Origin: Solitalea canadensis DSM 3403
GTDB lineage: Bacteria; Bacteroidota; Bacteroidia; Sphingobacteriales; Sphingobacteriaceae
Length of the DNA: 64,000 nucleotides
NCBI RefSeq assembly: GCF_000242635.2
Contig: NC_017770.1
Span: 2,058,669-2,122,668 of the forward strand
Reading direction: 5' to 3'
The position numbers and the translations under genes are program-made. Shown in pieces: positions 25,855 to 28,289 of this stretch (position 1 is its first letter; every line of letters starts with the position of its first letter). Under the pieces are notes generated by a model. It saw only the letters and a list, made by a program, of their open reading frames with translations. It was not told the origin of the DNA and did not search any database.

Positions 25855-26190
25855 GTTTTGTCCTTAACAGGACAATGAAAAAGGCTTTATGATTTTTTTC
25901 CGACATGTAGTCCCTAACGGGACTGCCCGATTATTCACCGATCTATATATCCATGGCAGACAATCGAAAAAGCGACACAATAATCGGTAGAGATAATAAA
26001 TAATAAAAAGAAAATCGACCCGTAGGGGCACCCTATCATGAGTTTTGTCCTTAACAGGACAACAAAAAGGAGATTCAAGTTTTACCGAAATGTAGTCCCT
26101 AACGGGACTGCTTAAATAATAATCCCCAATGGATTTTAAATTGTAGAAGCGAATAGAAATGTCCCGTAGGGACAATACATCGGTAGGACG
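25855..26190. repeat. Composite tandem/inverted repeat island
   Basis: This 472-base gene-free stretch (25782-26253) holds two copies of a roughly 186-bp composite unit. Element A, GTTTTGTCC-ttaaca-GGACAA, is at 25855-25875 and 26042-26062. Element B, ATGTAGTCCC-taac-GGGACTGC, is at 25905-25926 and 26090-26111. Element C, CCCGTAGGG(G/A)CA, is at about 26018 and 26162 and is accompanied by ATCGGTAG at 25982 and 26180. Each element is itself a short hairpin. It resembles REP-like sequences found between genes in Bacteroidota. No transposase is present in the window. Confidence 0.7.
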
Positions 26191-26197
26191 GTTAAAA

Positions 26198-26231
26198 ATA
26201 AAAAGGCCATCCCGGTAAAACCAGGACGGCC
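26198..26231 (-). terminator. Intrinsic terminator of the heptad lipoprotein gene
   Basis: On the minus strand GGCCGTCC pairs with GGGATGGCC (one A-C mismatch) and is followed by TTTTT. It lies 23 bases after the stop codon. Confidence 0.75.
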
Positions 26232-26253: not shown

Positions 26254-26463
26254 TTACTTTTTCAATGAATCAACTTTAGCAGCAGCTGAATCAACGTGTG
26301 CAGCAGCTGAGTCTACATGAGCAGCAGCTGAATCAACAACAGCAGCAGCTGAATCTACAGCTACAGCAGCTGAATCAGCAGAACCTTCTGCTTTTTTACC
26401 TTCACCACAAGCAACAACTGCGAATACACCAGCAGCTAACATTAATGCAAATACTTTTTTCAT
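26254..26463 (-). CDS. Small heptad-repeat lipoprotein
   Basis: A 69-residue protein from ATG 26463. The lipobox FAVVAC gives a lipidated C19, so the mature chain is only 51 residues. It consists almost wholly of a strict seven-residue repeat with aspartate at 30, 37, 44, 51, 58 and 65 (unit V-D-S-A-A-A-x), and ends in lysine. This should form one continuous helix or coiled coil, in outline like Braun's lipoprotein Lpp, though there is no clear sequence homology. The DNA repeats with a 21-base period. It is divergent from an ECF sigma gene and has the same two-part promoter. Function unknown; a structural or signalling envelope role is inference. Confidence 0.75.
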   Translation of the reverse strand: MKKVFALMLAAGVFAVVACGEGKKAEGSADSAAVAVDSAAAVVDSAAAHVDSAAAHVDSAAAKVDSLKK

Positions 26464-26500
26464 TTTTGTTTTAGTTTTAAAATTTTTAAGATTCAATACG

Positions 26501-26534
26501 ACATTAATACCCCATCCGTTAAAAGGTAACCCAA
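26501..26534 (-). promoter_or_regulatory. Predicted ECF-sigma promoter of the lipoprotein gene
   Basis: On the minus strand TTGGGTTACC (26534-26525), 14 bases, then GTATTAATGT (26510-26501). The same two blocks at the same spacing precede the sigma gene on the other strand. They do not fit the TTG/TAnnTTTG housekeeping pattern. Confidence 0.6.
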
Positions 26535-26572
26535 CTAATTGAAAATTTTTTTAAAATATTTTTTTCCTAATA

Positions 26573-26604
26573 TTGGGTTACCATTTCCGTTTAAAAGTAT
26601 TAAT
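26573..26604 (+). promoter_or_regulatory. Predicted autoregulatory ECF-sigma promoter
   Basis: TTGGGTTACC (26573-26582), 14 bases, then GTATTAAT (26597-26604). It is the mirror image of the promoter at 26501-26534; the two -35-like blocks form a perfect 10-bp inverted repeat 48 bp apart. The start of transcription would be near 26610, within a few bases of the sigma start codon. Confidence 0.6.
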
Positions 26605-26614
26605 AGTGCACAGA

Positions 26615-27208
26615 GTGATAAAGAATTCATACTCATCGGATAATGAAATCATCCAGGGAATACTGAAAGATTCTGAAGAAGCGTTGCGTCAACTTTATAA
26701 GCAACATTTCCCGGTAATTCTTCAGTTTATTCTGAACAACAATGGCGACGAAGAGGAAGCCAAAGATGTTTACCAGGAGGCAATCATTATCTTATATGAC
26801 AAAGTAAAATCAGGCTCGTTTGAGCTTAACAGTAAATTAAAAACATTCATATACTCTGTGTGCAGGCGTTTATGGCTAAAGCGATTAAAATCGATGAGCC
26901 GTAAAGCAGGGAATATAGCCGATTATGAGGAGTTTCTTCCGATTGAGGATGATCTGGAACACCACGAAGCAAAAGATGCCCAGTTAAATTTAATGGAAGG
27001 CTCACTTGCTAAACTTGGAGAACCATGTAAAACGATTATCGAAGATTATTATCTACACAATCAGTCGATGCAAGATATTGCAGAGAAATTTGGTTATACA
27101 AATGCAGAAAACGCCAAAAATCAAAAGTATAAATGTTTAATGCGTCTGAAGAAGATTTTCTTTCAGGCAAATATAAAAACGGAAGAAGAATATGTACGGC
27201 GATCTTAA
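26615..27208 (+). CDS. ECF-type RNA polymerase sigma factor
   Basis: A roughly 197-residue sigma-70-family protein. Region 2 (about 15-85) has EEALRQLYKQHFPVILQFI and the DVYQEAIIILYDKV helix used to melt the -10 element. Region 4 (about 125-185) has CKTIIEDYYLHNQSMQDIAEKFGYTNAENAKNQKYKCLMRLK, an HTH for the -35 element. No ATG is available before region 2. The longer frame would start inside the promoter, so GTG 26615 is chosen (GTG 26606 is the alternative). The gene overlaps the next one by 17 bases, pointing to translational coupling with its anti-sigma partner. Confidence 0.85.
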   Translation: MIKNSYSSDNEIIQGILKDSEEALRQLYKQHFPVILQFILNNNGDEEEAKDVYQEAIIILYDKVKSGSFELNSKLKTFIYSVCRRLWLKRLKSMSRKAGNIADYEEFLPIEDDLEHHEAKDAQLNLMEGSLAKLGEPCKTIIEDYYLHNQSMQDIAEKFGYTNAENAKNQKYKCLMRLKKIFFQANIKTEEEYVRRS

Positions 27209-28289
27209 CTTATTTAACGAAATTGAACGCTACCTTAAAGGGGAAATGACGGAGACGGAGCGTGCGAATTTCGATATGTTACGTAAAGAAGATGCTGATT
27301 TGGATCACAAGGTAGTTGAACAAGAGCAATTTGTTCAGCGACTAACTAATGTGGGTAATAGAAGAGCTTTACGTACTCAATTAAATGCAATCCATTCAGA
27401 AATTGACGTTAATGAACTGAAAGGATCAATTCAACCTAAAGAAGGTAAAATCATTCAGTTATTCAGACGTTACCGCGCTAATATTGCTGTTGCAGCAACT
27501 GTGGCTTTCTTTACGGTTATTGGAACTTTATTGATCACTAAAAATACAGGTTCTGAAAAACAAAATTCATCTTATAGTGCATTAAGAAGAGATATGGAAT
27601 CAATCAAGCGTTCGCAGAATGCATTGATTCGTAATATCAATAGTACAAAAACTAAAATGCCTGCTACACCAGGTTCATTTGGAGGAACCAGTTTTGTATT
27701 AAGTACCGACGGTTTCCTGATTACAAATTACCACGTAATTAATGGAGCCGATTCGATTTATATTCAAAATGAGAAAGGTGAAGCTTATAAAGTTAAAACT
27801 GTTTACAGCGATCCTTCGTTTGATTTGGCCGTACTAAAAATCGATGATCCTTCCTTCAAATCATTTGGATCATTGCCTTATACATTCAAAAAGTCTAAAT
27901 CTGATCTAGGAGAAGAAGTATTTACCTTAGGTTTCCCTCGTGATGAAATGGTTTATGGTAAAGGTTACCTGAGTGCAGCTACTGGTTTTGGTGGAGATAC
28001 TATTGCGTACCAGGTTTCTATTCCTGCAAACCCAGGTAATAGTGGAGGCCCGGTTGTTGATAATAAAGGAAATGTAGTAGGTGTGATCAGTGGTAAACAA
28101 ACCTTAACGGAAGGTGCTACATTTGCTGTCCGTTCGCAAAGTGTGTTGAAATTTATCAATTCAATCCCTCAGGATTCCCTAAAAAGCAAGATTACAGTAA
28201 CTAAGAAAAATACTTTATCAGGCTTAAGCCGTACACAACAGATCAAAAAACTACAAGATTATGTGTACATGGTAAAAGTGTATAATTAG
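27192..28289 (+). CDS. Membrane anti-sigma/trypsin-like protease fusion
   Basis: A 365-residue protein with three parts. Residues 1-92 are cytoplasmic and begin NEIERYLKGEMTETERANF, the pattern seen at the N-terminus of Bacteroidota anti-sigma factors. One membrane helix follows at about 97-116, preceded by RRYR, so the rest lies in the periplasm. Residues 155-335 are an S1C (HtrA/DegS-like) serine protease with H181 (NYHVINGAD), D211 (SFDLAVLKI) and S284 (PGNSGGP); the full catalytic triad is present. There is no PDZ domain. The ATG lies inside the sigma gene. In the E. coli sigma-E pathway anti-sigma (RseA) and protease (DegS) are separate proteins; here they appear joined. The anti-sigma role is inferred from position and the N-terminal motif. 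Confidence 0.78.
   Translation: MYGDLNLFNEIERYLKGEMTETERANFDMLRKEDADLDHKVVEQEQFVQRLTNVGNRRALRTQLNAIHSEIDVNELKGSIQPKEGKIIQLFRRYRANIAVAATVAFFTVIGTLLITKNTGSEKQNSSYSALRRDMESIKRSQNALIRNINSTKTKMPATPGSFGGTSFVLSTDGFLITNYHVINGADSIYIQNEKGEAYKVKTVYSDPSFDLAVLKIDDPSFKSFGSLPYTFKKSKSDLGEEVFTLGFPRDEMVYGKGYLSAATGFGGDTIAYQVSIPANPGNSGGPVVDNKGNVVGVISGKQTLTEGATFAVRSQSVLKFINSIPQDSLKSKITVTKKNTLSGLSRTQQIKKLQDYVYMVKVYN

Follow-up and report, generated by a model that had tools for sequence, protein, structure and literature searches.

A three-gene locus of Solitalea canadensis DSM 3403 probably encodes an autoregulated circuit made of an extracytoplasmic function (ECF) sigma factor and an anti-sigma factor that carries its own periplasmic protease of the HtrA/DegS type. 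The locus lies in a window of 64,000 nt (NC_017770.1, positions 2,058,669-2,122,668 of the forward strand), to which all coordinates below refer. Its genes specify the sigma factor, a membrane protein joining an anti-sigma-like N-terminus to a serine protease domain (the fusion protein) and, on the opposite strand, a small lipoprotein. Re-reading of the open reading frames bore out the three genes and the 17-base overlap reported in a first-pass annotation of this DNA, from which the two back-to-back promoter motifs in the gap between the lipoprotein and sigma genes were absent. Genomes and loci are labelled with G- and L-numbers, respectively, the window genome (5.2 Mb) being G000. The features of the locus are as follows.

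26205-26231, minus strand: intrinsic-terminator-like hairpin 3' of the lipoprotein gene, with a 12-pair stem and a T run (consensus match only)
26254-26463, minus strand: small lipoprotein of the PG1828 family, 69 amino acids, with VDSAAA heptads and a lipobox-like VVAC
26504-26532, minus strand: predicted lipoprotein promoter GGGTTAC-N15-GTATTAA, its end 40 nt from the ATG; one of the two exact sites in the genome
26575-26603, plus strand: predicted promoter of the sigma operon, GGGTTAC-N15-GTATTAA, in divergent orientation to the former; the other exact site
26615-27208, plus strand: ECF sigma factor, 197 amino acids, with a GTG start 11 nt past the promoter motif
27192-28289, plus strand: anti-sigma/protease fusion protein, 365 amino acids, overlapping the sigma gene by 17 bases
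27192-27431, plus strand: fusion residues 1-80, putative cytoplasmic anti-sigma-like helical domain (predicted helices; weak family and fold matches)
27480-27545, plus strand: fusion residues 97-118, probable membrane-spanning helix, as read from the sequence, containing the Ala-rich motif VAATVA
27675-28166, plus strand: fusion residues 162-325, HtrA/DegS-like serine protease domain with H181, D211 and S284 and without PDZ
28230-28283, plus strand: fusion residues 347-364, helix and strand conserved at the C-terminus (QDYVYMVKVY type), past the protease domain

The pairing of the sigma and fusion genes is widely conserved. Two collections were searched, one of 60 genomes (that of the window and 59 relatives, including 37 of the window's family with its own genome counted) and, by profile, one of 395 genomes of the phylum, window included. 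A full-length fusion protein occurs in 30 of the 37 family genomes, in all 30 with the sigma gene directly upstream on the same strand. In the phylum set, 29 of the 395 genomes have a match beginning at model positions 1-80, and ten more match mainly the protease part. Combining the 30 family loci with 23 new ones from these 29 genomes, a Rufibacter locus, and G047 and G052 (other class-level genomes) gives 56 non-redundant loci. Left out as duplicates were L032 and L033 (identical to L003 and L004), L103-L107 and L110; L102, L132-L141 (L132 and L139 being the same place), G194 and the weaker matches of the 60-genome search also stand outside this set. At 56/56 loci the sigma gene immediately precedes the fusion gene on the same strand, and at 49/56 a divergent small lipoprotein gene is adjacent, 48 being found by a pattern scan and the 49th, in G168, having escaped it (a weak site with 3/14 mismatches precedes that gene). 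Pairing by chance or as a lineage-local feature is rejected, as the 56 loci come from at least six families. The first-pass annotation had proposed this neighbourhood search, with lack of linkage as the outcome that would speak against a conserved module; linkage was present, and its observation proves correct and understated, the arrangement being beyond chance. The protease-only homologues (L102 and nine phylum genomes) had no sigma match in the stretch examined at 10/10 loci, which indicates that linkage to sigma is a property of the fused form. The seven family genomes without the fusion protein also lack the sigma factor: six gave no match at E 1e-10 and one reached 91 bits, compared with 320-326 bits in three genomes that have the module.

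The second line of evidence is the promoter pair. The pattern GGGTTAC-N14-17-GTATTAA has exactly two sites in the window genome, both at the module, and the reversed pattern used as control has 0 matches there. Among the 56 loci, the best match before the sigma gene has 0 mismatches (of 14) in 48, 1 in 6, 2 in 1 and 5 in L118, the last score arising because a long open frame displaced the search zone; L118 has an exact site. Before the lipoprotein gene (48 loci, taking the best of adjacent copies), the match has 0 mismatches in 32, 1 in 13 and 2 in 3. Dinucleotide shuffles gave at most one mismatch in 0/1120 cases for the sigma gene and 0/960 for the lipoprotein gene, and two mismatches in 9 and 10, respectively. 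The spacer is 15 nt in 44/56 and 45/48 best matches, respectively, and 15-17 nt in all 104, and the motif ends 27-47 nt before the lipoprotein ATG in 46/48. An exact site exists in 30/30 family genomes with the fusion protein, in 0/7 without it and in 1/23 class genomes of other families. In the 395 phylum genomes it is present in 26/29 with the fusion protein versus 13/366 without (Fisher p 8e-28, a value that is optimistic because species are related); in 25 of those 26 it lies at the locus itself, and in G090 elsewhere. A scan for sigma-70-type promoters, with Bacteroidota consensus promoters outside its scope, returned 7 sites versus a shuffle mean of 9.2, none of them in the gap; being no richer than shuffles, it led to the rejection of housekeeping promoters there.

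Lipoprotein genes that lie elsewhere keep the motif. G006, G018, G021 and G030 have no adjacent lipoprotein, and in each an exact site elsewhere precedes a lipoprotein of the same kind. In G410, tandem lipoprotein copies follow one-mismatch sites; in G052, a two-mismatch site precedes a 76-residue lipoprotein; and in G047, a one-mismatch site precedes only a DUF4349 lipoprotein, 298 residues long. These three inexact cases are weaker evidence because the motif was searched first in all seven genomes. The promoter thus accompanies the lipoprotein gene to its other locations. Given the joint presence and absence of motif and sigma factor and the exact promoter at relocated lipoproteins, control of its own operon and of the lipoprotein gene by the sigma factor is very probable. 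The lipoprotein, suggested as target or signal in the first-pass annotation, is through the shared promoter very probably a target. Recognition of the predicted promoters by this sigma factor is supported but not proven. The terminator-like hairpin behind the lipoprotein gene suggests a one-gene transcript.

Other targets were surveyed through 40 exact sites off the module, 20 from the 60-genome set and 20 from the phylum set, all in genomes with the module apart from G043. Small lipoproteins follow 9/40 sites (G006, G018, G021, G030, G024, G035, G320, G438 and G300). In five genomes of one family (G145, G178, G201, G434 and G090; loci L182, L184, L188, L191 and L197) the gene behind the motif encodes a 96-residue protein of the glycogen-binding AMPK1_CBM type (5/40, Pfam on two of five). 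A DUF4294 protein with a signal-like start accounts for 3/40 (G013, G023 and G027; L076, L079 and L085; Pfam on two of three) and a DUF4349 lipoprotein for 1/40 (G011). Of the remaining 22/40, some precede assorted genes, others fall within long frames or have nothing after them, and many look like chance. The window genome has three further one-mismatch sites, none convincingly placed: one precedes a 303-residue open frame seemingly internal to a larger protein, and two have no downstream frame of at least 45 residues. As further targets these were rejected, being probably due to chance.

The sigma factor itself is an ECF member, with sigma-70 regions 2 and 4 and without region 3. It matches the NCBIfam sigma70-ECF model TIGR02937 (E 1.1e-21, over cut-off), Pfam region 2 over and Pfam region 4 under cut-off, and SigW is the closest sequence in the Protein Data Bank (PDB) to its family profile. 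The stretch 26598-26617 holds a second in-frame GTG 2 nt past the promoter motif, the annotated GTG being 11 nt past it; in most other genera the GTG stands ~3 nt past. With a start so near the motif, little or no leader is predicted for the sigma mRNA.

The protease part of the fusion protein matches Trypsin_2 (E 9e-24), its closest PDB sequences are HtrA-type proteases, and it has the trypsin-like domain with the His-Asp-Ser triad typical of HtrA/DegS. The triad, which had been described as intact, is: H181, D211 and S284 are invariant in 30/30 aligned homologues (alignment A1, 30 rows, without L021), and His, Asp and Ser are present at 56/56 loci. No PDZ domain was matched in a domain library scan, and only a short helix and strand follow the protease. 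An AlphaFold2 model of the whole protein, built on 30 homologues (mean predicted local distance difference test score, pLDDT, 75), shows a helical N-domain, a helix 86-116 across the membrane span, a coil, the protease and, predicted with confidence, a C-terminal helix and strand; its top Foldseek matches are DegS without PDZ (3e-13). In the membrane helix, A101 and A102 are invariant in 30/30 homologues. The anti-sigma-like domain and the protease form a single chain in the 30 aligned homologues and at the 56 loci, two of which have a shortened N-terminus. Identity to the close relatives Solitalea agri and S. longa is 84 and 82%, respectively.

The N-terminal domain is the least certain part. 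AlphaFold2 places helices at 4-15 or 4-16, 21-33, 35-70 and 73-80 in the whole protein, and the N-terminus alone, predicted from 54/56 sequences (alignment A3, 54 rows, without L114 and L118; mean pLDDT 76), gives the four too. The class I anti-sigma domain is a three-helix bundle with a further helix, to which the four helices compare as helix boundaries only. The commonest profile matches of the family N-termini are zf-HC2 (23/54, best 1.9e-4) and the NCBIfam anti-sigma factor NF052375 (11/54, best 8.6e-5). In a Foldseek search of the domain against the PDB, 5/13 matches come from three sigma/anti-sigma complexes; they include 6in7_A, which is the MucA side because 6in7_B is the sigma, and 4nqw_B, which is RskA as judged by its length of 73. 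Adjacency to an ECF sigma gene, a feature of class I anti-sigma domains, holds at 56/56 loci. The domain is taken as an anti-sigma domain on the strength of gene position and concordant weak matches, with no single significant match, and this assignment is supported but not proven. The anti-sigma-like motif of the first-pass annotation is not significant in the window protein alone and draws its support from family-wide matches.

Several observations weigh against the proposed circuit. The window protein's own N-terminus has no significant match, its sole Pfam match being an unrelated family (E 0.076). All 13 Foldseek matches of the domain have E >5, and the three that are 3hug chains could represent the sigma or the anti-sigma side. 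A profile search of the PDB with the domain gave only unrelated proteins among the matches listed (60 of 129). Residues 1-94 contain no Cys and hence no Hx3Cx2C zinc motif, an optional feature given for only a subset (about 56%) of class I anti-sigma domains (PMC7406223). The open frames of L114 and L118 start late and miss about 40 N-terminal residues. The membrane helix 86-116 and the coil or stalk are predicted at low confidence (helix pLDDT mostly <50), and no cleavage site is evident in the fusion protein. At the level of genomes, two of the seven family members lacking the module have incomplete assemblies (76 and 85%), the site at the local sigma gene departs from the pattern by 1 mismatch in G065, G074, G168 and G090, and the sigma/protease pair of G047 and G052 comes without an exact site, the best matches before the sigma gene having 2 and 1 mismatches, respectively.

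The account that we consider most likely is a mechanism modelled on the sigma-E pathway. At rest, the N-terminal helical domain would keep the sigma factor at the inner membrane. An envelope signal would then render the protease domain active, and we infer by analogy that this domain most likely acts as site-1 protease on its own or a neighbouring periplasmic stalk, in place of a DegS encoded separately. An RseP-type site-2 protease, for which the genome has an RseP family match over cut-off (3.9e-78), could subsequently cut in the Ala-rich membrane helix, where the invariant A101 and A102 would suit such a cut, and free the sigma factor. Once released, it would fire both GGGTTAC-N15-GTATTAA promoters, one renewing sigma factor and inhibitor and the other making the lipoprotein, its presumed main target. 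As for the lipoprotein, it may protect the envelope as one of its components or act as a signal in feedback.

Among the alternatives, the protease could be a tethered effector or housekeeping enzyme. A different site-1 protease, or a change of conformation, would then free the sigma factor, and the fusion would merely tie protease dose to the response. HtrA-type domains usually degrade misfolded periplasmic proteins, and both the absence of an evident self-cleavage site and the protease-only relatives devoid of a sigma neighbour at 10/10 loci would fit such a role. Against it stand the sigma linkage of the fused form at 56/56 loci, the lack of a PDZ match and the closest fold, that of DegS, which in E. 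coli is dedicated to signalling (PMC8103513). On balance, this account appears unlikely.

A closed homeostat, compatible with the proposed circuit and adding to it, is a comparably doubtful refinement. The Ala/Thr/Ser/Asp-rich and probably disordered tail of the lipoprotein would occupy or inhibit the protease, so that low lipoprotein would turn the sigma factor on and high lipoprotein turn it off. HtrA proteases have a preference for disordered chains that contain small aliphatic residues, the window genome has its only exact sites at the module, and the lipoprotein is the most constant target, with two or three tandem copies at 14/56 loci. Against it, similar lipoproteins are present in a different family that has no module there, and other genomes have other targets too. 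In its fullest form, a self-cutting one-protein anti-sigma factor would sense the amount or placement of the lipoprotein by means of its protease domain and adjust this near-sole target in the window genome via two divergent promoters private to the module, without any separate site-1 protease, which we regard as rather improbable and put forward tentatively. The idea that the paired motif is the operator of an unrelated transcription factor and the downstream protein not an anti-sigma factor gains from the weak N-domain matches and is very improbable in view of the 15-17 nt spacing of all 104 best matches, the distance of 27-47 nt to the lipoprotein ATG in 46/48 and the joint presence or absence of motif and sigma factor.

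The comparison with the E. coli sigma-E pathway (sigma-E/RseA/DegS/RseP) made in the first-pass annotation is apt, as DegS without PDZ is the top structural match of the whole model. Both systems have an ECF sigma factor, a single-pass anti-sigma-like protein, a DegS-type protease domain and an RseP-family protease in the genome. In E. coli, anti-sigma factor and site-1 protease are separate, whereas here they form one chain without PDZ; the module has no further partner gene, and its probable target is a small lipoprotein. Autoproteolytic anti-sigma factors, such as C. thermocellum RsgI and the cell-surface-signalling regulators, are cut in their own extracytoplasmic part before site-2 cleavage. 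To our knowledge, these have no classical serine protease domain. RsgI is cleaved by RseP (PMC12203970), and the other regulators figure in the title of a reference cited by PMC10202637. Closer in taxonomy, the Dma anti-sigma factors, which span both membranes (PMC13088901), and a P. vulgatus pair, whose anti-sigma protein has a predicted outer-membrane beta-barrel (PMC9308784), resemble the present system as Bacteroidota ECF sigma factors with an anti-sigma protein of unusually large extra-cytoplasmic part. Those proteins reach the outer membrane, while the C-terminal part of the window protein is a serine protease, which sets it apart from the Dma type. Finally, SigH, an ECF sigma factor of P. 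gingivalis, is PG1827 (PMC5607195), and the namesake of the PG1828 family is numbered next to it; by locus number only, PG1827/PG1828 may be a distant version of the sigma/lipoprotein pair.

A text search of the literature found no description of an anti-sigma/serine-protease fusion or of this three-part module, in agreement with the earlier claim that none was known, although most subscription papers lay outside its reach and absence is not proven. The parts, namely ECF/anti-sigma signalling by regulated proteolysis, are known; as far as the searches show, the combination, the promoter pair and the spread are new. A recognised class I anti-sigma domain accompanies only 6% of Bacteroidetes ECF sigma factors (PMC7406223). 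For one ECF group among the remainder, the module suggests how control may be exerted, through a divergent anti-sigma-like domain joined to a DegS-like protease. Its promoter and main target are both defined, and its predicted regulon can be put to the test. If self-cleavage is true, the module would amount to a compact sigma-E pathway and provide a simple setting in which to study how an HtrA protease is switched on.

The lipoprotein merits separate comment. It contains VVAC, which we take to be a lipobox-like motif, and passes the cut-off of the NCBIfam PG1828-family lipoprotein model (56.7 bits, cut-off 50), as does one of five relatives' lipoproteins tried. The model matches 174/395 genomes at E 0.001, 21 of them over cut-off, and many of the matches are other small lipoproteins; the match as proof of a module-specific lipoprotein was rejected on account of this breadth. 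The six heptads of the first-pass annotation are readable as five full units and a truncated sixth, and they are lineage-specific rather than conserved: at least two VDSAA units occur in just 7/48 nearest lipoproteins, other lineages having Thr/Asp/Ser-rich tails, and the heptads were accordingly rejected as a functional feature. Tandem lipoprotein copies stand beside the module at L098/L103 (G023), L106 (G036), L111 (G414) and L112 (G312), several with their own promoter copy. A second, unlinked lipoprotein of the window genome (L235, G000:C1:3762508-3762684), a member of the same family, has an almost identical signal sequence and no such promoter; with a best motif match of 5 mismatches, it was rejected as a target. 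In one other genus, from another family (f26 g51, presumably Flavobacterium-like), 16 genomes have lipoproteins with near-identical VDSAA repeats at loci without sigma factor, protease or promoter (L206-L215, L217, L218, L220, L223, L227 and L233), the best motif matches having 4-6 mismatches, as in shuffles. This lipoprotein type thus predates the circuit or is more widespread than it.

Beyond the 3' end of the lipoprotein gene, the inverted repeat GTCCCTAACGGGACT occurs in two exact copies (25910-25924 and 26095-26109), with a related hairpin at 26160-26174. Matches with at most 2 mismatches appeared in 0/100 shuffles, and the repeat is possibly an element like the repetitive extragenic palindromic (REP) sequences.

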